A stretch of 64,000 nucleotides of DNA from Zingiber officinale (taxonomy: Eukaryota; Streptophyta; Magnoliopsida; Zingiberales; Zingiberaceae). The position numbers and the translations under genes were made by a program. The stretch is taken from contig NC_055987.1 in the NCBI RefSeq assembly GCF_018446385.1, forward strand, positions 33,739,202 through 33,803,201, in the 5' to 3' direction. The notes under the pieces are model-generated. The model had not been told where the DNA came from and did not search any database. It was given only the letters and a program-made list of their open reading frames with translations. Shown here piece after piece: positions 3,670-58,700 of this stretch (the stretch's first letter is position 1; each line of letters begins with the position of its first letter).

Positions 3670-6600
3670 AAGAATTTTCCTGCACTTATTTATTTCGCAT
3701 GAAAATATTTTTTATAAATTTCTTTGGACATTTTTGAGTACTTTGTTAAAAAAAACACGGTCGACAAAGAAAAAATGATAATTTATCAAAAAATATATAT
3801 GCTATTTGATATTTGTCAAAATAAATAAATAAATAAATAAATAAAAATAATACATCTTTTTAAATATATTTTCTATTTTATCCTTCTGGCAAATCTGATT
3901 TTTTTTCACTGTTATTTCTTACTCTCTCTCTTTTATTTATTATATATAAATCATATCAAGTTCACAACCTAAATCTCTCTTTCTTTTTTTTTCTTTTTTT
4001 TTTATTAGGCCTGATATTTCCTATATCAAGTCCATGTTAGGCCTGATATGGAAAGATATCAGGCCTAATAACAAAAAATATGAGAGATTTAGGTTTTTCA
4101 AAACATCTGGTCCACCACTAGGAATGCTGAAAATAATAATGAATAGCATATTTGGACTCCTTGCAATTTTAGAAATTCACAAGAACTAAAATAGGTGTAA
4201 TCGGAGCTCTTTAGGTCTATAAGTGGGTTTCGATTAAAATCCACTGATAGACCTAGAGAGCTCCAATTGCACCCATTTCAATTTCTGTGAATTGCTAATA
4301 TTGCAAGGAGTTCAAATATACTCTCCATTGTTATTTTTTGGCATTTCTAGTGATGGACCAGAGGTTTTGAAAACCTAAAACATATGGGGAATATTTTGCT
4401 GATTCTTTCTTATTGCATTTTAACATCTTTTAGAAGTTAAAATAAATAATAGATAGCATATTTTAACTCCTTGCAACATTAGAATTCCACAGAAACTAAA
4501 ATAGATGCAATCGGAGCTCTCTAGGTCCATCAGTGGGTTTTGATCGAAACTCACTGATCGACCTAGAGACCTCAGATTGTAGTTATTTCAGATCCTATGA
4601 ATTTCTAAAATTGAAAGGAGTCCAAATATGCTCTCCATTGTTATTTTTGGCAATCCTAGCGGTGGACCAGAGATTTTGAAAAACCTAAATCTCTCTCTTT
4701 TTTTATTTTTTTATTTTTTTTTCTTATTAGACCTAATATCTCCCATATCAGGTCCACGTTGGGCCTGATATGGGGAGATATCATGCCTACATTGGGCCTG
4801 ATATGAAGAGATATCGGGCATAATAACAAAAAAAAGACAAAAAATAAAGAAAGGGAGATTTAGACCTAGAGAACTCCGATTGTACCCATTTCAGTTTCGG
4901 TGAATTTCTAATGTTGTAAGGAGTTCAAATATGCTCTCCATTGTTATTTTTGGCATTCTTAGTGGTGGACCAGAGGTTTTGAAAACCCCTAAAACGTATG
5001 GAAAATGTTTTGCTGATTCTTTCTTATTATATTTTAACATCTATTAGAAGTTAAAATAAATAATACATGGTATATTTTAACTCCTTACAACATTAGAATT
5101 CCATATAAACTGAAATGAGTACAATCGGAGCTCTCTAGGTCCATCAGTGGGTTTGATCGAAACTCACTGATCGGCTTAGAGACCTCAGATTGCAGCCATT
5201 TCAGGTCCTATAGATTTCTAAAATTGAAAAAAGTCCAAATATGTTCTCCATTGTTATTTTTGGCATTCCTAGTGGTGGACCAGAGGTTTTGAAAAACCTA
5301 AATCTCTCTTTCTTTCTTTTTTTATTTTTTTTTGTTATTAGGCCTGATATCTCCCATATCAGGTCCACGTTGGGCCTGATATGGGGAGATATCAGGCCCA
5401 CATTGGGCCTAATATGAAGAGATATAGGGCATAATAACAAAAAAAAAAAAGAGAGATTTAAACCTAGATAGCTCCGATTGCACCTATTTCAGTTTCTGTG
5501 AATTTCTAATGTTGTAAGGAGTTCAAATATGCTCTCCATTGTTATTTTTGACATTCCTAGTGGTGGACCAGAGGTTTTAAAAAATCTAAAACGTATGGAG
5601 AATATTTTGCTGATTCTTTCTTATTATATTTTAACATCTTTTAGAAGTTAAAATAAATAATAGATAGTATATTTTAACTCCTTGCAACATTAGAATTCCA
5701 CATAAACTGAAATGAGTGCAATCGGAGCTCTCTAGGTCCATAAGTGGGTTTTGATCGAAACTCACTGATCTACCTAGAGACCTCAGATTGCAACCATTTC
5801 AGGTCCTATGGATTTCTAAAATTGAAAAGAGTCCAAATATGCTCTCCATTGTTATTTTTGGCATTCCTAGTGGTGGACCAGAGGTTTTGAAAAACCTAAA
5901 TCTCTCTTTCTTTCTTTTTTTTTATTTTTTTTTATTATTAGGCCTGATATCTCCCATATCATGTCCACATTGGGCCTGATATGGGGAGATATCATGCTCA
6001 CATTGGGCCTGATATGAAGAGATATCAGGCCCAACATAGGCTTGATATCTCTTCATATCAGGCCTAATAACAAAAATAAGAAGAAAAAAAAGAGATTTAG
6101 ACCTAGAGAACTCTGATTGCACCCATTTCAGTTTCTGTAGATTTCTAATGTTGCAAGGAGTTCAAATATGCTCTCCATTGTTATTTTTGGCATTACTAGT
6201 GGTGGACCAGAGGTTTTGAAAAACCTAAAACGTATGGAGAATGTTTTGCTGATTCTTTCTTATTATATTTTAACATATTTTAGAAGTTAAAATAAATAAT
6301 AGATAGTATATTTTAACTCCTTGCAACATTAGAATTCCACAAAAACTGAAATGAGTGCAATCGGAGCTCTCTATGTCCATCAGTGAGTTTTGATCGAAAC
6401 TCACTGATCGACCTAGAGACCTCAGATTGTAGTCATTTCAGATCCTATGGATTTCTAAAATTGAAAGGAGTCTAAATATGCTCTCCATTGTTATTTTTGG
6501 CATTCCTAGCGATGGACCAGAGGTTTTGAAAAAACTAAATCTCTCTTTTTTTTCTTTTTTTTTTGTTATTAGACCTGATATCTCCCATATCAAGTCCACA

Positions 6601-8065
6601 TTAGGCCTGATATGGGGAGATATTAGGCCCACATTGGGCCTGATATGAAGAGATATCAGACCCAACATGGGCATGATATCTCTTCATATCAGGCCTAATA
6701 ACAAAAAAAAAAAAGAAAAAAAAAAGAGAGAGATTTAGACCTAGAAAGTTCCGATTGTACTCATTTCAGTTTCTGTGGATTTCTAATGTTGCAAGGATAT
6801 CCATTGTTATTTTTGGCATTCCTAGTGGTGGACCATAAGTTTTGAAAAATCTAAAATATATAGAGATTGTTTTGCTGATTCTTTCTTATTATATTTTAAC
6901 ATCTTTTAGAAGTTGAAATAAATAATAGAAAACATATTTTGACTCCTTGCAATATTAGAAATCCATATAAACTGAAATGGGTGCAATCGGAGCTCTCTAG
7001 GTCCATTTGCACCCATTTCAGTTCTTGTGAATTTCTAAAATTGCAAGGAGTCCAAATATGCTCTTTATATTATTTTCGACATTCCTAGTGGTGGACCAGA
7101 GGTTTTGAAAAATCTAAATCTCTCTTTCTTTCTTTCTTTATTTTTTTTTTTTTTTTTTTTGTTATTAGGCCTGATATCTCCCATATCAGGCCCACGTTGG
7201 GCCTGATATGGGGAGATATCAGGCCCACATTGGGCATGATATGAAGAGATATCAATCCCAGTGTGGGCATGATATCTCTTCATATCAGGCCTAATAACAA
7301 AAAAAGAGAGATTTGAGTTTTTCAAAACCTCTGGTCCACCACAAGGAATGTCAAAAATAATAATGGAGAGCATATTTGGACTCCTTGCAATTTTAGAAAT
7401 CCATAGGAACTGAAATGGGTACAATCGGAGCTCTCTAGGTCTATCAGTGAGTTTCGGTCAAAACTCACTGATCGATTTAGAGACCTCAGATTGCAATCAT
7501 TTCATGTCCTGTAGATTTCTAAAATTATAAGGAGTGTAAATATGATCTCCATTATTATTTTCGGCATTTCTAGTAGTGGACCAGAAGTGTTGAAAAATCT
7601 AAATCTCTCCTTTTTTCTTCTTCTTTTTTTCCCCTGTTGTTAGGCCTGATATCTCTTCATATCAGGTCCACATTGGGCCAGATATGGAGAGATATCAGAC
7701 CCAACGTGGGTTTGATCTCTTGTAATATATTTGAGAAAAAAATTGAAAAAAAAAAAGAAAAACAAAGAGAAGATAAAAAAGAAGAAGGAAAGAGAAGATA
7801 CGTTGCATGCATAATAGGAAAGAGAAGAGTGAGAAATGACAAAGAAAAGAAAAAGAAAATCAGTTAAATTTGTCACGAGGATAGAATAGGAAGATCATTG
7901 TAAAAAAGTGTGTCATTTGGTAAATGCTAAAGTAATATATATCTTTTAGTAAATTCAAAAACTTAAGTACGTCTTTTGATAAATTATTGAAAAATAAGAA
8001 AAAAAAATCCGATAGTAGAAAACATGTATATTATTTTTTTTCCAAAAAAAAAAAAATCTGATTAT
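3670..8065. mobile_element. Probable inverted-repeat element enclosing a tandem array
   Basis: The outer parts match in opposite orientation. Near 3770-3905 there are aatttatcaaaa and ttctattttatccttctggc; near 7870-8000 the reverse complement shows aatttatcaaaa and cctattctatcctcgtgac. The match is imperfect and the outermost ends and target duplication could not be fixed. I infer one element with decayed terminal inverted repeats whose interior has been expanded by tandem duplication (see 3960-7720). No transposase is present. Confidence 0.45.
3960..7720. repeat. Tandem array of about 600-bp units with internal hairpins
   Basis: The block gatatctcccatatcaggtc recurs near 4736, 5348, 5948, 6578 and 7173, with partial units at both ends (about 4010 and 7650), a period of 595-630 bp. 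Each unit contains the palindrome-like ggcctgatatggggagatat...aggcc, a second imperfect hairpin built on atcggagctctctaggtcc and its complement, and two copies of the phrase gtggtggaccagaggttttg next to T-rich or A-rich tracts. Units differ by many substitutions and by small length changes, so the array is not very young. Frames of 60-120 codons repeat the same peptide theme (LISLHIRPNVGLI) and are repeat shadows, not genes. Confidence 0.8.
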
Positions 8066-19585: not shown

Positions 19586-21183
19586 TGTTACAATCCTACA
19601 TGGAATAAGTCTCCATGAGATCGGGATAAGGTCAATGAGATAGGCATGGAACAATCCTTCAAGGGATTACTCTTGGGAGAATAAATCAAATGGCAAGTCA
19701 TTGAATGAAGAGTCTATAAAAAGGAGAATCCTCGCACATTATTATGACATCAGAGTAATAATGCAATTCTCTTGCCCTCCTGTGCCTTTCTCTCTCTAGA
19801 ATGCTTTATTTCTCTCCGACATTGTTCCACCATCTCACCATTGTCCACCATCTCTGTGATGCTTTATTTCTCTCTGACGTTCCAATATCTCACCATTGTC
19901 TTCCCTTCACTCTTGGTTCAACAGGTCCAGCTTGTAGAAGAGCACTCGGAGAGACACAATCTCATAAGTTATTCCTTCTTGGAGCTCCTCTCAATGGTGC
20001 AAATGATAGACTGGGGGACCATTGCGAGCTTTGAAGAGATCCATGTTGATTTTCACCAATTCATTAGAAACCATTCAAGCAACTCTCAAGATGATAAAAG
20101 ATGGTAGGACACCTAGCCGTAATCCCCATACAACTGAAGCAATTGGAGAGACAAGATCTCATAAGTTATCCCTTCTTGGAGCTCTTCTCTATGGTGCAAA
20201 CGATGCAGAGGATTACCTTTGAAGAGATCCATGTTGATTTTTGCCAATTCATTAGCAATCTACTTAAATGCATCAAGCAAGTGTTGCAGGACGTTGTCGC
20301 CCATAGTCAGCTATGATACAAATTTGTTATAGTTATGTGCGAGAGATCGAGTTCATGATGAGACATATTCAGGTCTAGCTTGGAGTTGGTAGCAAGACCC
20401 TCTTTTTACCTCTAAGAGACACCATTTACAGGGGAAAAGCAATTTAACCAAGAGAAAAGGGAAGAGTCAAGAATAGGCAATGGTACAATAGTGGAGCAAT
20501 GTCGGAGAGAACAACAGCATCAGAGAGAGATAGAGCCCAACACATGAGATGGGAAGAAACTTTATTACTACTTTGATGCCATTATAGTGTGCAATTGCAA
20601 CTCTTTTATGAACTCCTAATTTGACAGAGGATTACCTTTGAAGAGATCCATGTTGATTTTTGCCAATTCGTTAGTAATCTACTTAAATGCATCAAGCAAG
20701 TGTTGTAGGACGTTGTCGCCCATAGTCAGCTATGATACAAATTTGTTATAGGTATGTGCGAGAGATTGAGTTCATGATGAGACATATTCAGGTCTAGCTT
20801 GGAGTTGGTAGCAAGACCCTCTTTTTACCTCTAAGAGTCATCATTTACAGGGGAAAAGCAATTTAACCAAGAGAAAAGGGAAGAGCCAAGAATAGGCAAT
20901 GGTACAATAGTGGAGCAATGTCGGAGAGAACAACAGCATCAGAGAGAGATAGAGCCCAACACATGAGATGGGAAGAAACTTTATTACTACTTTGATGCCA
21001 TTATAGTGTGCAATTGCTCTTCTTTTATGAACTCCTAATTTGACCTACTCTAATGACTTAATTTGTTTATTAACATCTGGTTTGATTTATACCTTGAAGA
21101 TTGATCCCTTAAGGCTTGCTTCACATCTATCTTATTAAGTCTATCTATATTCCATGGAGACTTATTCCATGTGAGATCGTAAC
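19586..21183. mobile_element. 1.6-kb repeat-ended insertion in the 5'UTR intron
   Basis: The left end tgttacaatcctacatgg matches the inverted right end (ccatgtgagatcgtaac) over about 33 bp including the shared core acatggaataagtctccatg. The direct duplication aaatg flanks it (19581-19585 and 21184-21188). The interior has three copies of a gagacacaatctcataag-like segment (about 19955, 20148 and a weaker one) and a 419-bp tandem duplication. No coding capacity is seen. It is a non-autonomous element of unknown class. Confidence 0.6.
20206..21043. repeat. 419-bp tandem duplication, two units
   Basis: Unit 1 (20206-20624) and unit 2 (20625-21043) align base for base at an offset of 419, with about ten differences noticed by eye (about 97-98% identity). 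The duplication is more recent than the element that holds it. It contains no gene. Confidence 0.88.
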
Positions 21184-43725: not shown

Positions 43726-46700
43726 TCACATCAGGGACAGCATGCAAGCTGGAGGTATTGTTTGGTTGTATCCAGCTTGCACTGATAACCTCTCGGGGCC
43801 ATTCGGCAGCAGCAAGTAGTTCATCGGAGAGTTGGAATCTGATGCACCATTTGGCTGAGGGTAAGGGCCCCCGGCAATGAATTCCCTGCCAACAGGTGAA
43901 AACAGATGTGTCGATGCATCATCAGGCTCCCATGGATGGCGACCGATATTTTGAATTGCCCCGGCATTGAAAGAAACGGTTGAAGATATCAAGAAAGGCC
44001 ATGCCTGTTCTCCTGAATTGACACCCCTCCAGTTTGCTGGCTGTGGCATGTTTGTTCCGTGCACATTTTGAGAATTTTGACGCTGGTAGACTTCAGGAAA
44101 ATTGGCAAGGGTTCTAGGGTGCGGTGGAACCATGGGGGGAACAGAGGAACTGGTAGCTCCAGGTCTCGAGCCATTTCTGCAAGGAAACAGAAACAGAGAC
44201 GTTAGAATCATCACACAGTGAGTGTACATCAAGCAAAGTTGAACTATGTGGGGGGCATGAATAATAACCGAGTAAAGTTAAACACGCGAACATATTAATC
44301 AGGGATTGTAGATACGACAATTGCCAGTCATATTATTTGAATGAATGCACAAGTTGGCATATCATAAATAGATAGATGAACATAACTCACCTGTGGCTGA
44401 AAACAAATGGAGGGAAAACAGAATCGGCACTAGGAAAACCATCTGTTTCAGACCTTGAAAAGTGAGATGCTAGATCAGCACTGTTAATGTGGGCATTAGG
44501 AGGGTAATATGGATGATGGTGATGTCCCCAAGCATGATTTCGCAAATTATTTAGTGCCGCAATTCGAGTGTGAGTATCTCTTGGTCTCGAGAAATAACTC
44601 CATTGTTGGTGATATCCAAGACCATCAGGCTGTAAATCAAATGTTGAATGATTGGGAGGAGGTTGGAGCCATTGTGTGTGAGCTATGAAAGGGCAGGGAT
44701 GAGTTGATGACATGGTAGCCTGGTGCTCAGTCATAATACCATGATATCCAAAAAGATCACGAACTGTGAAAACAAAATTATCCTTGATTATTCCAATTTA
44801 GTTCACATTGTGTCTATTTAATATTTCCGAAGCATCAACTTACAAGCAACAGCTGAAGAAGATTCACCTTCCCTAGAAAATAGAAAAGATAAGTTAGGTC
44901 ACTAATGTACTATAAAGATTGCGGCTTTTAGCAAGGAATATGGTCACCACCAACAATAAGGGAGTGCGTTAGAAAAGAATTATGCGAACTGTGCTCCATT
45001 TATGAACAAAAGTTCAATAATTAACTAACCCAATGCAATTCCCGTGCAACATGAGTTTACAAAAAAACACACAAGAGAAAGTCATTCAAACATGCAGTTA
45101 GATTTACAGTATTATGTATATCTACCTCAAGGTTTACTTCTAGCAGTTACCGATAAACCTTTGACACCCAAATTCATCAGAAAGGAAACAGACCATAAAT
45201 GCAACTTTTGTTAGTTACGAGGCAGAAAGGAAGAACACAATTTATAAATTTATAAATTGAGATGTTTCATAATTTGAACAAGAAGCTCTGTATCTTACAC
45301 AAGATTTGATAATCAAATTCTAAGAACCATGACATGTGAAATAATTGGAATGATCAAAGCTTATAATCTTTGATCAATCATATTTCTGCTTCATTGGGTT
45401 TGATTTCCCCTAAAAAGGGGGATGGTTATAAAATAAGCAAATTGTAGCTTTGAAAAACAATAAAATTTATACCGTATAGAGCAAATTTTAACTATAAACA
45501 CTAGTGTGATCGTGCACACGCGTTGCGTGTATAATATAATAATATATAAATTATTTGGGTCTTTGAAAATCTGAATTTTTTGGATTTTCTAGTACCACCC
45601 TTATAAACTAAGAATTAATTATTTGGGTAAGATTCGTCAGACCCATATAATAATGACGCTAGAGAATCCCAGCAACAAACTACTTTAACAGGTTTCTCTA
45701 TGCAAAAAATTATTTTAATTTAATATTATACTTGTCTTAGTAAAAAAAACTAAGAAAAGTATATTTTTTAACATTGTCGGTCTAAAATATTTATAGAACC
45801 TTCTTTGATCATAGTATTATCAATTCTAAGATATGAGACTAAAGAGAACTATATTTTTTATATAAAACAACCAAAGAAAATTAATAATGAGAAAAATTCA
45901 TAATAATACGCTATAGCTGAGTCTCGAACTCTAGATCACTGATTGTTTCGCTTGTGGAATTACTAATAAACCTTGGAATTATTTTTAGTATAAATAGAAA
46001 AAAGGACATTAACGTAAATACATTTTAGGCTTCACCAAAAGTTAGTTAGAAAAGGGGGGAGATTTTTAATAAAATAGTAAGATATTGTACATTATGAATA
46101 TCCTATAAGCATTCTATTGATAGCAATAGATAAAACTATCACCTCGACAACTCCTCCAAGGTGGCCCCCACTATCTAGAAGGGAGGTAAATCACGATGGC
46201 TTCACCCAGCAACAGCAGCACATGCAAAAAGAGATTGAAGCAACAGGCCTTTCGCACTCCCGGGAATCGACCCGGGCAGCAACACCCTTGCATGAACCAA
46301 CTACATCAGCTCATGGGAGTATACTATAAGCATTCTAGCGTGTAAAGCAAATTGTAGGTTTGAAAAATAATTAAAATTTTAATATAAATCATATAGTAAT
46401 AATTTTAAAATAAAATAAAAATACTGATAATTTAATCACATATAAAAATAAGAATCAAGATTAAATATACAATTTATAAGTAACTCTTAAATTCAATTAA
46501 AAATAATTATTTTAAATATATTTTTTATATCATCATTGTTTTACTTAAGCAAGAGTACTTCTAAGTACACTTTTACTGAACACTATAAGTTGCAAGAGTA
46601 TTTCTCCGGTCAAACTGAGTGCATGTCCAATTCTCCAACTAGGCCGAACGGGTGTTCGGTTCTCTGGTCAGGCCAAAATATGATCCTTAAAATTTATAAA

Positions 46701-49700
46701 TTTTGGTTGTGATATCATATAGGTCCTTTCCTCCAAAACTTAGTTAACCTCATTAGATCTAATGTTGTGGTGGGAATGGGGGGCTGCTTCCAAGCTTACC
46801 GTAGTTTTCAATCTCCAACTCTTAATTTTCAACATAAAAAACAAAAAACAATGGCATTTATTTCTGAAAAATAAGGATGGTTACAAATCTTGTCAAAGCA
46901 CAAATAGTAAAAAGTGGTTGCCATTATACAATATAGAAAGATCATATAATGTCTAACTTACTCAAACAGTGATTGAATTCTTGCCAAGCCACTGAAAGGG
47001 CACCAATGACCTCCATCTGACTGTAGAAACAAATAGAAAAGTGTGATGAGAAAAAAAATTCAATTGAAACAAAAGATCTGACAAATAATAAGAGACAACA
47101 GGAGAAATGGAATCACAGAAACCATTATACTCAAGAAGTCATGCATAGTCAGGTATGAATTTTTTTTTCTTAGTGAGATTTATAAATGTTCAATATCTAA
47201 ATGGGATGGGTTATTGAAAGTTTAAACAAATACAAATGTGCATAATGAGGAGTAATAATTCATCATTATCAACATACAGGTTCAGTGTAACTATGATTGT
47301 GAAGGTCTTCATTGTGCATCCACTCATCGACAACAAGATCTGGAGTTGGATGGCAGCCATTTGAGTAGAGCCAATTTCCTCCCTCTTCAACTTTTCGACA
47401 ATTCGGGCATTGCATCACTCCTTTAGCATTAAAGGCAGAACCAATGCAATCTGAAACAAATAATTTGGCAATGACAATTAGTAAGTCCGCTAAAGTTCTA
47501 GCTGGAAAAGCCAATTTATCATGGCAGGTAATCATCATATTTAGCATAAGAATAATTGTTTGAAAAAAAAAATTAGATGATTCACCTGTGAGCATAAGTT
47601 AACTTCGTCTTTAGTTTAACTTTAAACAGCATGTAATGAGAAAAACTAAGCACACTAAACAGGTTCACGTTATGAAGAGCTAAGGTAGCTGACCTTTAAA
47701 CTCTGAAACTCAGAAAATATTGTAGTCAAAAAGGTATGTTCCGAAGAGTGTGAACATCAGGAATTCAGAGTTGAATGATCAATGGTGGATGTCAACCAAA
47801 ACTTAAGAAATTCCAATCGTAGTTAATAAAACCATAGGGTTGGCAATCTGTATTGTCATGATAGGTGTAGACATCTGAATCAGAACTTAAAGGGAGAGTG
47901 ACAATTCAATTAAATGTGATTCTACATTTTTATATTATGAGAGAAAAAAAAAGAGAAAGAATCCTCGTTAAAGATCAAATAGCACTCATCAAAATTAAAT
48001 CCAATAAATTAAATAAACCCAACCGAAGGGGAGCCTTGGCGCAACGGTAAAATTGTTGTTTTGTGACCAAAAGATCACGAATTCAAATCCTGGAAACAGT
48101 CACTTGCAAAAAAGTAGGATAAGGCTGTGTACAATGGATTCTTCCCTGGGACCCCATATAGCGGGAGTTTCGTGCACCGAGTTGCCCTTTTTAATTTAAA
48201 TAAACCCAACCCATCAAAAAGTAAGCCAGCCTATCACATAAATAAATAAATATGAATGTTATAAAAGGATACAAATGCAGAGGCTAGGAAGGATGAAGTT
48301 TGAAGTAGAAAAAAAAAATGTTGGCCCAAAGAATCAATGGTGAGTGTTCCATTGCTAAAGATAGTCAATGTGAAATGTACTATTGTCATTTCATTTTTTA
48401 ATTGAAAGACAATATTTTGAAATTTTTTTATAAGTGAAATATGAACCATATTTTATCGTCGTTAATCAAGATCAATGATACGGGTTATAAGGAGTGGATC
48501 CCGTGTAATAATGTGAAAGGGAATATAAGCAGTGTTGTAGATTTCGGCCTAGGCAGCCACCTAGGCGCTAGGCGGCCCCTAGCCGAACCGAAAACCTCAT
48601 ATTCGGCCAAACTAGGCGGTACTATTTATATGCGGTCCTAGGCGCCAAATAGGCGGTCTGTTCGGCCTAGGCGCCGCCTAGACCAAACAGATTTTTTTTT
48701 TGTTTTGGACCAAACCCTTTTTTCTATAATTATTTATAGCCCAAAAGCCCAAAACTACTATGTTTCTTTCCACAGCTCCAACCCTAATCTCGCTGCACAT
48801 CTCTTTGTCACCCGCCCTAATCTCGCTGCACATCTCTCTGCCACCCACCCTAATCTTGCTGCACATCTCTCTGCCGCCAGCGTCGCTGCGTTCATTCTGG
48901 TCCACCCTTCCACCGTTCTCTGCCACGCCTCGCTAGAATCTCTCCGGCGCCCTAATATCTCTGCATCAAACTCGAAGAAGCAAGAATCTGCACCACTGGT
49001 GAATTCTGATTCTTCCATGCTTTTTGCTTGCCTTCTTGCTTCCTCTTTGATCCTTCTTGGTTCTTCAATGCTTCTTGGTGCTTCTGCCTTCTTGCTTCTT
49101 AGTTCTTCACTTCTTCTTTGCTGCTTCTTTGATGCTTCTTGGTTCTTCTTGGTGCTTCTACCTTCTTGGTTCTTCGATGTTTCTTGGTTCTTCGATGATT
49201 CTTAGTGCTTCTTCCTTCTTGCTTCTTCTTTGATGTTTCTTGGTTCTTCGATGCTTCTTGGTGCTTCTTCCTTCTTGCTTCTTCTTTTATGCTTCTTGGT
49301 TCTTCGATGCTTCTTGGTGCTTCTTCCTTCTTGCTTCTTCTTTTATGCTTCTTGGTTCTTCGATGCTTCTCGGTGCTTCTGCCATCTTGCATCTTGGTTC
49401 TTCTTTGATGCTTCTTGGTCGATTAAAGAGATTTGACATGCTAAATTGCTAATACAGTAATACTTACTGAATTAATGAGGTTTACCGGTTACAATTTTTC
49501 ATTGGAAGCTTTTGTTAGTGTTACAATTCTTCAATTTTTCATTAGAAGCTTTTTCATTGGCCTGCTACTATTATGCAATTATGGCATCTTCAACTGCTCC
49601 CGAGGGTTCGGGCTCGGTTAGTGTTTCTCAAGCTTCTCAAGATTGTAAAGTACTAAAACGAAAATCGAATGATGTTGGATGGGTGTATGGGATGTTAATT

Positions 49701-52700
49701 GATGCAAAGAACTTGGACAAAGTCAAATGTATTTTATGTGGGAAAGTTATGTCCGGAGGAGTTTACAGAATAAAAGAACACGTAGCACACATAATGGGAA
49801 ATGTGTCTGCATGTCCAAAGTCTTCAAAAGATGATCAAGCTAAGTGTAGGAATGCAATTAATGAGGGAAAGATGAAGAAGAGAAACAAGAAAATTGAAGA
49901 GGAATCTTTAAGATTGGATGTGAATATTCGAAAAGACATTGATGTGGATGAATTTCAAGAATCTTTTGGGACCATGAAACCATCACGTACCCTTGGTCCT
50001 ATGGATAAGTTTTCAAGTGTCATTAACCCCGAGACTCCTTTGAACTTAGCAAAGAGCAAGCGGGAACAAAACATCAATGATGCTCTTTTCAAAGAAAGAA
50101 CAAGTTTGGTTAAAGAATGTCTGTAGATGGGCATATGAAGCTGGTGTTTCTTTTAATGTTGTTGATAGAGATAGCTTTAAGGTGATGATGGAGGCGGTTG
50201 GTCAATTTGGGCCAGGGTTTAAACCTCCTACTAGATATGAAATGAGCGAGCCGTATTTGAAGAAAAAGGTTGACAGGATCAAAGGCTCACTGAAGACAAA
50301 TGAAGAAGAATGGAAATTGAATGGGTGCTCAATTATTACAGATGCTTGGAGTGACAGAAAAAGGAGGTCAATTATGAACTTGTGTGTCAATTCTAGATTA
50401 GGCACCGTTTTTCTTTCCTCTAAAGAATCTTCAGATGAAACTCATACAAGTCAACTAATTTATGAGTATGTAGAGCAATGCATTCAATAGGTTGGTCCAG
50501 AAAATGTTGTTCAAATAGTAACTGATAATGCCTCAAATAACATGGGAGCTGCAAAGTTGTTGAAGGAGAAGAGGCCAACAATCTTTTGGACCTCATGTGC
50601 TACTCATTCTATAAATCTTATGCTTGAAAGTATTGCAAGTATACCAAGGTTCAAGAAAGTCATTGATCAAGCCAAGGCATTAACTATATTTATTTATGCT
50701 CACCATAAGACCTTGACATTGATGAGATCATATACAAAGAAGAGAGATATTGTGAGACCAGGGGTGACTAGATTTGCTTCAGCATTTCTAACTTTGCAAA
50801 GTTTATCTGAGAAAAAAAGTCAATTAAGGACAATGTTTACTAGCACTGATTGAGAAGAATGCAAATTTTCCAAGAGTGTTAAAGGGAAAACATCTTACAC
50901 AACAGTGTTGAGTATTGGATTTTGGACTGGTGTGTCATTGTGCTTGAAGGTTTTTGCACCTTTGGTGAAGGTGCTTCGAATTGTTGATGCTGATAAGAAA
51001 CCATCTATGGGTTTTGTGTATGGTGAGCTTCTGCAAGCTAAGAAAGATATTAAGAATGCTCTAAGTAATGTTCCAAAAAACTATCAGCATATTATTGATA
51101 TTATTGATGCAAAGATGAAAGATAGGCTAGATAGTCCACTGCATCTGATGGCTTATTTGTTGAATCCTTTTTATCATTATAAGGATCCGCTTCTTTATTT
51201 GGATCAAACTGTCTCAATTGGGGTCATTGATTGTATGGATGTTATCTTTTTTGGGGATATTGATATGCAAAATATCATTTTGAGTGAGGAGTTACCCATG
51301 TATAAGAAAAAGGAGTCTATCTTTGGAAAACCCATTGCAGTAAAAGTATGTTCATTGAATGATGACAAGTTTGATCCAAGTAATTAAATAAATATTCATA
51401 ATATTATTATTGTTTGAGGTTATTAATATTATTCATGTTATTGACTTATTTTTTTATAATTACGCAGCAAATTGGTGGTCGACTTTTGGTGCATTGACTC
51501 CTAACTTGCAGAAAATTGCTATGAAGATCCTCTCTTTAACTACTAGTTCATCGGGGTGTGAAAGAAATTGGAGTACATTTGAAGGGGTTAGTAGCTTAAA
51601 GTCTTAAACTATTTTAATACTAATAGACTAATAGTTCATTATGTTCTCATAAATATTAATTGTATTTGTAGGTGCATACAAAGAAAAGGAATAGACTAGA
51701 TACACGTCGATTAAATAATCTAGTCTTTGTTCAATTCAATGCAAAACTGATGAACAAGAAAAATAGGGAAAAAGAGAGGAATATTGAGGTTCTTCTAGCA
51801 AGTGATGCAAATTCTACACAAGATTGGATTGTTGATGGGCTTGATGATGAAGTTGAACACGACACAGGCATGACTTGGAAAGTTGTTAGTGATGCTATGG
51901 GAGCAGATGAAGCGCTTAGGCTTAGAAGAAGTAGTAGACTTAGAGAACTTGATGAGGATGACTTTCAATCCGAGAGTGAGGAGGAAGTGAGTGTGTATGA
52001 GTTTGATTTTGAATCAGATGAAGAGCATATCATAGAAGAATATGGAGAAGGAGAGGAATTTTCCTAAGGATTTGTAGTACAAACTGATGTTATGATTGTT
52101 ATCTTTGTAGTGTGTACTTTGTAGTTTGTAGTTTGTACTAGACTACTAGTTTGTTTCCATGTTTTTTTTCCTTTGAAGTTGGAACTTTGAATAGCTTGAT
52201 GCTATTTGCTATTTAGCTTAGGCTACTTGATGTTCATTTTGGTATCACTTGCTAGTTGTTACTTGTTTTGAATTTTGGTATTTCATTGAGATCAATGTGT
52301 ATTTCACATTTTCACTAAAAGACCACATGGTATCTAGAGCGCCTAGGCACCGCCTAGGCGCTAGGCGCCAGTCGAGCGCCCGACTGGCGCCTAGCAAAAT
52401 CTGCAACACTGAATATAAGGAGAAGAAGGAAGACATAGGTGTTGGGGTTGCAAGGTTGCAAACATAGTCCCACATTGAAAACACATGGGAAAGATCATGA
52501 GTTTATAAGAGAAAGATATCTCCATTGGCATGAGGCCTTTTGGATAGAGCCCAAGAGCAAAACCATGAGGGCTTAGGCCCAAAGTAGACAATATCATACA
52601 ATTGTGGAGATATCTAAATTCTTTTCGATCCTACAATTGGTATCAGAGCCCGGACTGCCAGAAGGTTTAACCGCCGACTGTGCACAAGAGCTATGGTTGA

Positions 52701-55700
52701 CCCATGTGGGTACAATATTGACCTTTAACAAAGAAAGTGGGGGCTCCAATATTCGGATCAAAAGGACCAGACACCAGGCAGGAAGTCCTAGTTGCGGCTA
52801 GGCAAGGAAATCCTAGTAGGTCAGGTGAACCGAGGGGTACGAAGACCTGGTGGATCAAGGATCGGACATGGGAAATATGTGGTCCTTTGTTTAAGGGGGG
52901 ATTGTTGGGGTTGCAAACATAGTCCCACATTGAAAACACATGGGAAAGATCATGGGTTTATAAGAGAAAGATATCTCCATTGGCATGAGGCCTTTTGGGT
53001 AGAGCCCAAGAGCAAAACCATGAGGACTTAAGCCCAAAGTGGACAATAACATGCAATTGTGGAGATATCTAAATTCTTTTCGATCCTACAATAGGGAGGC
53101 TCAGATAAGATAAATGCGCTCAATAAACAAATCCCAGTCGGAAATATAGGTCCAGGATAAAACTAACGGAGCACACAATGTAAGTAGGTATATTCGGCAG
53201 ACAAAGCTCGGCCAAGCATATAGTGTCGGACGAACCCAAATGGATGAAGTATTAGCAAACACACCTACACCCAGCAAGGGAGCTTCGATCAAGCATGAAA
53301 TACCGACCGAGAATATAAGTCCGATCGAGTATATAAGCTCGACTGAACTAAAACAGACAAAGGATTAGTGCGTTCAGATACGCCCAGCAGTAGAGGTTCG
53401 ACCAAGCATAAAGTACCGACCGAATTAAAATAACAGAGGGTCAATGAACCTAGGAACGCTTAGCAAGCAAAGCTCCGCTAAACTTAAAGGCGTATATCCC
53501 TAATCAATTTCTGTAATCGGTCAAGCGAAGATCGATTGCATATCATAAGGCCCAATATGACTCAATAGGCAAAGCCCGAGCGGGCATCAACACAATGTAG
53601 GCACAATATGCTCCGTAGTAGAAGCCCGGTCGAGCATACACATAACTCGTTCGGTAATATAATCTCGAGCGATCGAGCAAGCATACGAACCAAGGTTGTC
53701 AGAAGGGGCTCAACTCAATATGCTCGATAATAGAAGCCCGGTCGAGCATACACATAACTCGTTCGATAATGTAATCTCGGGCGATCGAGCCGACATACAA
53801 ACCAAGGTTGTCAGAGGGGGCTCGGCTTGAAAGTATCCGGTCGGACATAGGCACAATACGCTCGATAGTAGAATCCCGGTCGAGCATACACATAACTTGT
53901 TCGGTAATGTAATCTCGGATGATCGAGCCGAAATACAAACCAAGGTTGTCAGAGGGGACTCAGCTTGGAAGTATCCGGTCGGACATAGGTACAATACGCT
54001 CGGTAACACAATCCCGGGCGGGTATATCAACACGCACCTTTATGAGGCTATTAGTATGAGATCGGCCTGGTAAAATTTGGCCGGGCATAAAGACACTCAC
54101 GATTATTAAACCTCATGAACATAGCCAGTAAGGAGTATTATAATTAAATATGAGTGGGGTATGAGAATAATATATGATCATATGACATTTTGGTTAATTT
54201 AGCGGAAAACAGTTTCTAGAAACTTCTGTAAGTGCGCTAGACGACAAAGAAGGTACATATGGGGTATAAAAAGATTCCTTAAACTATTATTGCAGGTACT
54301 TACGTCATCTCATAACAAACTCTAACAAACCGGGGTCCACCTCATGATCGCGGAGGTTATATGAGGTGATATAAAAAGGGGAATCCTCTCCGTTGGCAAG
54401 GTACGCAAAACACCATCGTTGAAACCCTAGTTCCACTTCGATTTTTACTGTACTTCTTCCCACTTGGAACAGCGGGGACTGACTTGAGCGTGGGAGGGCA
54501 TAGCTAGGGATTCCCACCCCGGTCTTAGGTCACTGACGCTTTGTTGGTTGGTTCCGTAGTACGCAGGAGGCGACAACAACTGCCGGAACATCGAGCTGTG
54601 TTTTCTTCATCACGGTGCTTCAATTCGCCGGAGTCTTCACTAGATCTGCTTTAGGTTTCTCAGATCTAGCTTCAACCTATTATTTCACAGACGACGCCAA
54701 ATTTGATCATGTCTGAAAGCGTAACGGGATGAAAAGCTGGGGACGACAAACGATGACTCTGGAGGAGAGATAGGCGACGACCCCGAGGAAAGCGAATAAT
54801 AATGGATCTAAGAAAACCAAAGAAGATCCCGAAGAAATCCAGTCAAAAGTACCTTTCAGCGATGAGAATAGCAGGTTGAAGCTAGATCTGAGAAACCCAA
54901 AGCAGATCTAGGAAAGACTCCGACGAATTGGAGCACCGTGATGAAGAAAACCACAACTCAATATTACGACAGATGCTGTCGCCTCGTGCGCACTACGGAA
55001 CCAACCAACAAAGCGCTAGTGACCCAAGATCGGGGTGGGAATCCCTGGCTAGGCCCTCCGACGCTCAAGTCAGTCCCCTCTGTTTCAAGTGGGAAGAAGA
55101 TGAAATATAGTAAAAATCGAAGTGGAACTAGGGTTTCAGCGGTGGCGTTTTGCGTACTTTGCCAACGGAGAGGATTCCCCTTTTTATACCACCTCATATA
55201 ACCTCCGCGATCATGAAGTGGACCCCGGTTTGTTATGAGATGACGTAAGTACCTACAATAATAGTTTAAGGAATCTTTTTATACCCCATATGTACCTTCT
55301 TTGTCGTCTAGCGCACTTACAGAAGTTTCTAGAAACTGTTTTCCGCTAAATTAACCAAAATGTCATATGATCATATATTATTCTCATACCCCACTCATAT
55401 TTAATTATAATACTCCTTACTGGCTATGTTCATGAGGTTTAATAAACGTGAGTGTCTTTATGCCCGACCAAATTTTACCAGGCCGATCTCATACTAATAG
55501 CCTCATAAAGGTGCGTGTTGATATACCTGCTCGGGATTGTATTACCGAGCGTATTGTACCTATGTCCGACCGGATACTTTCAAGCTGAGTCCCCACAACC
55601 TTGGTTTATATGTCGGCTCGATCGCCCAAGATTACATTACCGAATGAGTTATGTGTATGCTCGACCAGGATTCTACTATCGAGTGTATTGTCCCTATGTC

Positions 55701-58700
55701 CGACCGGATACTTCCAAGCCGAGTCCCCTCTGACAACCTTGGTTTGTATGTCGGCTCGATCGCCCGAGATTACATTACCGAATGAGTTATGTGTATGCTC
55801 AACCGGGCTTCTACTATCGAGCGTATTGAGTCGAACCCCTTCTGACAACCTTGGTTCATATGCCTGCTCGATCGCCCGAGATTATATTACCGAACGAGTT
55901 ATGTGTATGCTCGACCAGGCTTCTACTACGGAGTGTATTGTGCCTACATTGTGTTGATGCCCGCTCAGGCTTTGCCTATTGAGTCATGTTGGGCCTTATG
56001 ATATGCAATCGATCTTCGCTTGACCAATTACAGAGATTGCTTAGGGATACACGCCTTTAAGCTTAGTGGAGCTTTTCTTGCTAAGTGTTCCTAGGTTCAG
56101 TGACCCTTTGTTATTTTAACTCGGCCGGTACTTTATGCTTGGTCGAACCTCTACTACCGGGCATATCTGAACGCGCCAATTTTTTGTCTGTTTTAGTTCA
56201 GTCGGGCTTATATACACGACCGGACTTATATTCTCGGTCGGTATTTCATGCTCGATCGAAGCTCCCCTATTGGGCGTAGGTGTGCTTGCTAATACTTCAC
56301 CCATTTGGGTTCGTTCGCACTATATGCTTGGCCGAGCTTTGTCTACCGAATATACCTACTTACATTGTGCGCTCCGTTAGTTTTATCCCAATCGGCCCTA
56401 TATTTCCGATCGGGATTTTCTTATTGAGTGCATTCATCTTATCCGAGCCTCCCTATTTCTTCCCTCTTCTCCTTATATTCCCTTTCACATTATTACACGA
56501 GATCCACTCCTTATAACCCGTATCAATCAACATGCCCCATTAATCATGTTGCGATACAAAATAGAATTGCCTTATTGTAGATATCATATAGAATATTAGA
56601 ATGTAAAACTTATTCCAGGTAGAAAACTTTTTAAATTATATTACAATTTGTAATTGAATTTAAGATTTGATAGGATTTGCAATTCCACAATAGGAACCAT
56701 TATTTGGCAACCTTTTATCACACCAGTTTGTGTCTCTTTACAAACTGTGAAAAAAGAAGGGAGAACAGTCATAAAGTGAAAGATAAAAGAAACCTTGGAG
56801 AGAATAAGATTGTAGTTATTGAGCTCTAATTGGGAAATGAAAATCTGGAAGTTTGATATGGTGAGCCATGGTCTGGAAATGACCAAAAACAACAAGTTTC
56901 TGAAGAGAAAATGCAACATTTAATCATCATCATGTTAAAGTCATCATAAATAAACAAAGGCCCAACACACTCTCAAGTTTTAGCAGTTGCACCAGCACCC
57001 GTCTGCTATTTTGGAATAGCTTAACAAGATATTTAACAGAATATATCATCACCACAGATACTAGGAGATAGGCAAAGTGAAGAGTGACTATAGTGCTGAC
57101 AAGAACATTTTTTAGTGCAACAAATATAAAATTATAATTGTTTGTATGTATCAGATTACTAATTTTTGGAAAATAACAAAAATGAGAACTACAATTCTAC
57201 TATCACAAAGTGAGGATACAGAAGACTCCAGTAAAAAGAATTATATCATCACAGTCTTATAAAAAAAAAAGGGTAGCTCGGTGCACGAAGCTCCCGCCAT
57301 GCGGGGTCCCGGGGAAGGATCCATTGTACGCAGGCTTACCCTGCTTTGTGCAAGAGGTTGTTTCCAGGATTCGAACCCGTGACCTTTTGGTCACATGGCA
57401 ACAACTTTACCATTGCGCCAAGGCTCCCCTTCTTATCACAGTCTTATGATTTTTGAAAATTTCTAAAAAACATGGCACTAAAGAATTCTATAACATATAT
57501 AATATATAGTATCAAATATGGTATCCTTTAATTCCAAACATAAGAAATGGAGTTTCAATTCTCATTTCCTCATGCAAAAACAAATATAAAAGTTGGAACT
57601 CAGAAAATTAAGAATTATTTACTAACATAGAGTTGGAATTCTTTTGTAGCAGTAAATTAAATCAAAGAAAACTCAACATGTGCAACCTAGTCTGCACTTT
57701 ACAATATGGATGTCCAGCTTATTTGCTTTTGAAGGACAATAAAACAGAAAAATTGGATATAACTTGGAGGTAAATGCAGTAAAAAAATCCTATTATAATG
57801 TCCTTAAAGTGTAAGGGCCCTCCCATGAAAAAAGGGTGCCCGATCATAAATTATGAGAGAGAGGTGGTTGCAAAAAGTAGAATTTATGGTCCCCCGTGAA
57901 GCCCTCTCCATAGAACTGAACCCACAATAATGCAAGTACAACCTCTTGTGCTTTCTAACATGACCATCCTCATCCTCCTCTCAGACATTGGACCAGGAGT
58001 CGTTCCTCCCCGCAAGATTGCTACCACACTCCTTTTTCCCAGTTTCGCCCTCAACTCCTCCAATCATCCATTTTGAGCAATCAAGAAACCCAACTCTCAT
58101 GAGGCTTGGTTTCAGCGAGAGAACACATCCCTTCCAGCAGACGCAGCTAATCTTGCTTTACCATCTCGACCCTCTCCCTCCTCCTCCCTGCTGGCACAGC
58201 CTCCTCAAGAAGCATTGATAGTAGTAGAGCAACCAAATTCCAGGACTTATTGATGAGGTAAACAACCCAGGCACTAGCACAGCAAGTGCAGTTGCTTTTT
58301 TCTGATTGTACCTAGTAAGAATATTTAGATCAGTTTTATTGGATATCTTAGCATCATAATCTCAAAGTCTTTTACTATGATCATCTTACTTCAACTGGCA
58401 TGTTCAATGCACAGACTCACCTTATTGATCATTTCATTGTATATCTTGCTTGGTCAAAGGACGGAGCAGTCTAACCTTGGATACCTTTTTCTTATTTATC
58501 TGCCAGAATTATCTCCAACATCCATTTGCATTATATCGTACAATCTTCTATGATTAGCACCACATGTCCATCTGAACGCCATTTCAGTAGATATTGAGGG
58601 GTTTTGCTTCACATTTCTTTGATATTTTTGTTCACAGAGTTCATCTGATCTAAACAACTTATTATTATTCCTGCTGTTTAGAATATCATCTAGCATTCAG

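Follow-up and report, generated by a model that had tools for sequence, protein, structure and literature searches.

A chromosomal palindrome of Ty3/gypsy long terminal repeats in Zingiber officinale, probably derived from aberrant reverse transcription

The window analyzed here is a 64,000-nucleotide (nt) stretch of the Zingiber officinale genome (C2:33739202-33803201, in a genome of 3.09 Gb), and it contains a foldback at positions 48476 to 56525 whose arms are long terminal repeats (LTRs) of one Ty3/gypsy family. We interpret this foldback as an aberrant reverse-transcription product, palindromic in form, of a probably Tat-like Ty3/gypsy LTR retrotransposon, inserted as one piece by integrase, and place the probability of this reading at roughly 0.8. 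The foldback has a U3 end on either side, and a single 5-bp duplication encloses the two; solo LTRs of the family show duplications of this length. Internally, the inverted arm is joined where an 18-nt tRNA-Lys copy ends (nt 15-19). The two arms are sisters, and a hAT transposon and a terminal-repeat retrotransposon in miniature (TRIM) entered later. The same foldback is found on a second chromosome, at C1:29058862-29062358, with the same outer flanks and ATCAA duplication and with neither hAT nor TRIM. The parts of the window copy are as follows.

48471 to 48475, plus strand: left outer 5-bp target-site duplication, ATCAA; an identical duplication flanks the C1 copy.
48476 to 54684, plus strand: left arm, an LTR running from its U3 start TGATACGGG into U5 without the last ~163 bp, split by hAT and TRIM.
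54682 to 54699, minus strand: primer-binding site, the complement of the tRNA-Lys(UUU) 3' end, which carries mutations in the window copy; the palindrome junction lies at its far end.
54704 to 56525, sense strand minus: right arm plus spacer, a complete 1822-bp LTR, TGATACGGG...CATGATCA.
56526 to 56530, plus strand: right outer target-site duplication, ATCAA.

An earlier note on this DNA described an inverted-repeat element carrying two nested insertions, and its comparison of the arms holds: 48476-54684 aligns with 54867-56525, and, small indels of 1-10 bp aside, only hAT and TRIM break the alignment. When the right arm is reverse-complemented and compared with the left by BLAST, the main alignment shows 91.7% identity across 1606 columns, and an outer piece aligns at 96.5% across 57 bp. 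The outer ends of the foldback read TGATACGGG...CCCGTATCA with ATCAA on either side, a duplication that was absent from the list in the earlier note and that aids identification of the element. The order of events proposed in the note stands. The nature of the foldback has to be revised: it is a palindrome of Ty3/gypsy LTRs, apparently integrated once through two U3 ends, and no self-standing inverted-repeat transposon.

The extent of the LTR follows from matches to the spacer between the arms. The spacer query returned 41 rows from the best 40 scored candidates (the last row being a second fragment of one match), and only the window and C1 match it end to end. Other matches begin at query 24-28, corresponding to window 54683-54687 at the primer-site end, and a second cluster begins at query 40-45, which is window 54699-54704, level with the LTR end or just short of it. 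Together with the LTR alignments, these start points delimit the right arm plus spacer as one complete LTR, with the ends TGATA...GATCA. Solo LTRs of the family share these ends and a 5-bp duplication, which is exact in L018 (CCATA/CCATA) and has one base changed in each of L019 (GACAT/GGCAT) and L020 (GGCAT/GACAT).

Coding domains of a Ty3/gypsy element adjoin LTRs of this family. Retrotrans_gag lies downstream of the LTR in L014, while L027 carries RVT_1, RVT_3, and rve in that order downstream of the LTR, with rve above the Pfam cut-off, and L017 has a zinc knuckle ~6 kb inward from its LTR. No family was assigned to 5 of the 10 pieces searched beside family LTRs. The tRNA-Lys primer, along with a hint of a second RNase H (a weak RVT_3 match between reverse transcriptase and integrase), hints that the source family may be Tat-like. 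In the excerpted text of PMC6317226, tRNA-Lys is named among non-chromovirus primers.

Past the LTR end, normal copies read AATT, then the 18-nt site TGGCGCCGTCTGTGGGAA, and then a leader. TGGCGCCGTCTGTGGGAA complements without mismatch the final 18 nt of tRNA-Lys(TTT) with CCA added, and ARAGORN calls a tRNA-Lys(TTT) gene in L036 and L037, two of four loci fetched from 38 pattern matches. The full 18-nt primer site is present in 18 of 20 copies chosen as exact over its first 14 nt (L040-L059), and older copies, like the window, carry changed primer-site bases. Among the 36 LTR-primer-site junctions found in the fetched loci at up to 3 mismatches (L029 included in the comparison, L030-L035 left out), the C1 palindrome alone turns into an inverted LTR; the window junction, tested separately from these 36, likewise does so. 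At the C1 junction, the tRNA copy can be followed to nt 19, with a single base changed, before the sequence passes into the inverted LTR at LTR position ~1650. The C1 junction is better preserved than the window junction, which has mutated further. A full-length match to the junction occurs at 2 of the 40 scored matches (from 83 first-look candidates), namely, the window and C1.

Two other loci contain extended tRNA copies. At L039 (C3:77839981), the primer site is prolonged as a 37-nt tRNA-Lys copy that rejoins the leader at ACGTG, as judged against L044, and at L038 (C2:124773449) the tRNA-Lys copy is 26 nt as printed. These are the other two of the four loci retrieved with the tRNA pattern, and ARAGORN calls no tRNA gene in either. 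Both are probably genome-preserved cases of read-through of the usual tRNA stop. Plus strands in this lineage thus copy the tRNA, sometimes beyond the usual stop, and a short match brought at least the L039 end to its partner.

Taken with these observations, the structure of the foldback suggests an origin in mispaired strong-stop DNA. Plus-strand strong-stop DNA would consist of U3-R-U5 followed by 18-19 nt copied from the tRNA, and its 3' end would mispair with the U5 of a second such molecule within one particle. Extension of each strand along the other as far as its U3 5' end would then give a linear duplex that has U3 at both ends and is asymmetric at its center, matching the observed structure of one complete and one truncated LTR. 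Integrase would insert this U3-ended palindrome with the 5-bp duplication of the family, presumably using two U3 ends. In Ty3, plus-strand strong-stop DNA with a partial tRNA copy becomes displaced, and the particles accumulate dead-end products, according to the excerpted text of PMC5371799. Pairing between the ends was examined by listing the best pairing sites in the C1 right-hand LTR for the 3' end of plus-strand strong-stop DNA, with Watson-Crick or GU pairs allowed. With an assumed end at nt 18, the junction site pairs over 7 consecutive bases and is tied for best with 3 other sites; with an end at nt 19, it pairs over 8 and is tied with 2 others.

Several points weigh against this interpretation. 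The event is known only once, the C1 copy being the same event, inherited or duplicated. Genome-wide, 7329 LTR-primer-site junctions were counted, and in a non-random sample of the first 20 exact matches listed, all on C1, none is inverted and all 20 run into the leader, so the event is rare. The window junction is mutated, and hence the exact position of the switch is taken from the C1 copy; there, the shared letters GAAT leave the join ambiguous at nt 15-19. In the pairing test, assumed ends at nt 15, 16, or 17 place the junction site outside the six best sites shown, and the test is partly dependent on the junction itself, as GAAT is common to both, although the pairing extends beyond GAAT. 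As for the family assignment, the RVT_1 and RVT_3 matches in L027 fall below the Pfam curated cut-offs. Finally, Ty3 stops after 12 tRNA nt in the excerpted text of PMC5371799, so an 18-nt stop is not universal.

The hAT and TRIM insertions in the left arm provide a relative chronology of the locus. Their positions are as follows.

48522 to 48529, plus strand: left copy of the hAT target duplication, aatataag.
48530 to 52411, plus strand: hAT element with CAGTGTTG ends, its transposase decayed into stop-free pieces.
52412 to 52419, plus strand: right copy of the hAT target duplication, aatataag.
52435 to 52439, plus strand: left copy of the TRIM target duplication, atagg.
52440 to 53090, plus strand: TRIM of 651 bp, with LTRs at ~52440-52635 and 52903-53090 and the TGGTATCAGAGC primer site from 52638.
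53091 to 53095, plus strand: right copy of the TRIM target duplication, atagg.

The first of these elements has an 8-bp duplication, short terminal inverted repeats (TIRs), and hAT transposase domains: among its stop-free pieces, two match DUF659 and a third matches the hAT dimerization domain, and no family was found for 3 of the 6 pieces searched. The motif aatataag occurs 5 times on the plus strand of the whole window, making its exact placement at both hAT ends unlikely to be chance. The second element combines short LTRs, a primer-binding site, a purine tract preceding the 3' LTR, and a 5-bp duplication, contains no listed open reading frame of at least 150 amino acids, and is repeated across the genome (best 40 scored of 2549 first-look candidates). 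Its LTRs differ by 7 mismatches in 182 aligned bp, a lower divergence than that between the two window arms (110 differences in 1648 positions, K 0.071).

Both insertions have empty sites, as the earlier note had reported. Each break in the left arm carries one additional target copy, and the uninterrupted right arm holds single target sites at 56472-56479 (aatataag) and 56452-56456 (atagg); the two sites are separated by 15 bp. The order of foldback first and hAT and TRIM afterwards is supported by the right arm within the molecule and independently by the empty site on C1, which confirms the order by evidence from outside the molecule. C1:29047600-29073016 is collinear with window 37882-64000, and the pieces outside the foldback are 92.7-98.1% identical (one short piece, 86%). 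C1 is a homoeologous, duplicated, or other-haplotype chromosome relative to C2.

In a tree of 15 LTRs, the left and right arms from C1 and C2 form one near-star clade with a support of 1.000, and pairwise K among these four arms ranges from 0.064 to 0.080. Changes in a single arm predominate (163 sites). Among two-versus-two site patterns, 14 unite the pairs within a locus, 4 unite same-side arms, and 5 unite crossed arms. In our reading, the palindrome formed not long before C1 and C2 split, perhaps with some gene conversion as well. The chronology is thus the palindrome, then the divergence of C1 and C2, and then hAT and TRIM on C2 only. The locus offers a clear insertion chronology, with empty sites both within the molecule and on the other chromosome.

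Alternative origins differ in how well they accommodate these features. The same strong-stop DNA might have reached the palindrome by another route, either with its 3' end priming on genomic RNA in the manner of a second tRNA, or with one strand snapping back and later being copied to duplex. Such routes involve mostly standard reverse-transcription steps and would be expected to give identical final DNA, yet we consider them unlikely, since priming on RNA should leave a tail past the polypurine tract and a snap-back should give a one-ended hairpin. Folding of the last 204 nt as single-stranded DNA gives a z of +1.04, with 170 of 200 shuffles folding at least as well, which speaks against the intramolecular snap-back version. 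It is quite unlikely that two LTRs arrived separately, or that a normal element was rearranged after integration by inversion, recombination, or break repair. Adjacent LTRs in opposite orientation do exist, for example, at C16:80069917/80076028, apparently in two neighboring elements. In the foldback, however, a single ATCAA duplication exactly brackets both U3 ends, the inner LTR end has a primer-binding site in place of such a duplication, and the arms are sisters; had a normal element been rearranged, the left duplication would adjoin a U5 end and not another U3 end.

A genuine foldback or TIR-type DNA transposon (Mutator-like or FB-like), with arms that only look like LTRs, would likewise have long inverted arms, terminal inverted repeats, and a target duplication. 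Such an origin is very improbable, given that the arms end as do the LTRs of a family whose U3 start has 432 matches at up to 3 mismatches, that primer-binding sites and gag/pol domains adjoin such LTRs, and that the duplication is 5 bp long and the full-length junction is confined to this locus and C1 among the 40 scored matches. A Mutator/FB-type foldback was rejected on its LTR ends, 5-bp duplication, and single locus, and a mobile palindrome family was rejected on the position of the C1 copy in collinear sequence. Palindromes are also known as assembly artifacts, but a false palindrome is exceedingly improbable here: the two arms show 110 differences in 1648 positions, and a second chromosome has this junction too, with independent mutations. 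Poor arm alignment and an assembly join had been named in the earlier note as grounds for doubt; the arms align, the sequence shows no sign of a join, and the foldback recurs on C1 between matching outer flanks, with the inner junction matched over its full length. Mispairing of two strong-stop DNAs remains our preferred explanation.

Further palindromes were sought among the U3 starts of the family in the genome. The best 100 of the 432 starts were inspected, as were further overlapping sets of U3 starts (75 of 75, 100 of 152, and 43 of 43), and outward LTR pairs within ~20 kb were sought by eye among those listed. Three such pairs were found among the matches listed: this locus, its C1 counterpart, and the C16 pair. 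The C16 pair was rejected as a second palindrome; its members share no duplication, and the left member follows a purine-rich stretch that also precedes several other LTR starts, which we read as 3' LTRs. So there is one palindrome event among the matches listed. A wider outward pair, C15:94895595 and 94923011, is ~27 kb apart.

Among known systems, we rate the palindrome as an aberrant LTR-retrotransposon integrant. Like a Ty3/gypsy LTR retrotransposon of the Tat-like type (tRNA-Lys), it has LTR sequence, TG...CA ends, a 5-bp duplication, and a primer-binding site, and gag, RVT_1, RVT_3, and rve domains occur beside such LTRs. It differs from a normal complete element in lacking an internal region and a second direct LTR; its second LTR is inverted and truncated, and both of its ends are U3. 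A solo LTR is similarly an LTR-only insertion with a 5-bp duplication (L018), whereas the palindrome retains the primer-binding site and a second, inverted LTR. Foldback and TIR transposons (FB, FARE, and long-TIR Mutator-like elements) also have long inverted arms, but their ends and duplication length differ from those of the palindrome, which is absent from other sites among the 40 scored junction matches. DIRS-type elements are retroelements with inverted terminal repeats that use a tyrosine recombinase and make no target duplication; in contrast, the relatives found here carry an rve integrase, and the palindrome has a 5-bp duplication. Two-LTR circles join the U5 end to the U3 end of direct LTRs, whereas here the LTRs are inverted, with their U5 parts facing each other, within a chromosome. 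The likeness to these circles is that their LTR-LTR junction is also termed palindromic, as in PMC1905944 and PMC1180852. Dead-end plus-strand strong-stop DNA of Ty3 and Ty1, as presented in excerpts from PMC5371799, is alike in combining U3-R-U5 with a tRNA-copied piece; it is a dead end there, while here it has apparently dimerized and integrated, with ~18 rather than 12 tRNA nt.

We know of no other integrated U3-U3 LTR palindrome, and no description of one was found in the open-licence PubMed Central (PMC) literature among the matches listed. The excerpted text of PMC11899658 does not mention palindrome, foldback, strong-stop, or template-switch, and there "inverted" is confined to the reference list. 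The primer-site sequence string did not occur in the paper texts searched.

Other differences between C1 and C2 lie around the palindrome. A C1-only insertion of ~3.9 kb (C1:29062382-29066291, partner of window 56538) begins ~19 bp beyond the right end of the palindrome and has TG...CA ends and an apparent TTAAT duplication. Two repeats that are 84% alike flank the palindrome on opposite strands (48025-48198, plus; 57260-57432, minus); by eye they appear tRNA-derived, resembling short interspersed nuclear elements, and ARAGORN finds no tRNA in the window. C1 lacks the right repeat, and the alignments on its two sides share ~15 bp there, an overlap of the kind expected from a target duplication. 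At 45500-46079, ~580 bp present in C2 are missing from C1 between collinear stretches. Paired-chromosome LTRs (L012/L013, L015/L017, L019/L020, and L027/L028) show, by branch lengths, ~0.5% differences in one case and ~5-8% in the others, and chromosome pairs thus seem to hold stretches of very different divergence (L012/L013 versus L015/L017, L019/L020, and L027/L028). Elsewhere in the window, 3966-7782 is a dense array of direct and inverted repeats on both strands, with direct copies ~600-640 bp apart and mostly 70-90% alike, and 20206-21044 is a 420-bp tandem duplication with 97% identity.

The palindrome would also bring two promoters of the family face to face, judging from the TATA boxes of its LTRs.

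54370 to 54376, plus strand: TATA box of the left LTR, directed inward, read directly from the sequence.
55182 to 55188, minus strand: TATA box of the right LTR, directed inward and convergent with that of the left LTR, position computed.

The two convergent promoters would yield a long hairpin RNA, if transcribed; the hairpin predicted for RNA of 54400-55150 has a folding energy of -491.8 kcal/mol, while 20 shuffles average -216.0. A broader proposal, which we advance tentatively and hold to be somewhat doubtful, is that dead-end strong-stop DNAs may dimerize via their tRNA-copied 3' ends into U3-ended palindromes that integrase accepts, a side pathway that could seed hairpin-RNA loci against the parent family.

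If the proposed origin is correct, the locus would be a fossil reverse-transcription error preserved at near base resolution. It would suggest that an integrase can act on two U3 ends in the absence of U5, and that strong-stop DNA carrying a tRNA copy can enter the chromosome rather than dead-ending. It would also offer a simple origin for some plant "foldback" elements that might otherwise be annotated as DNA transposons.

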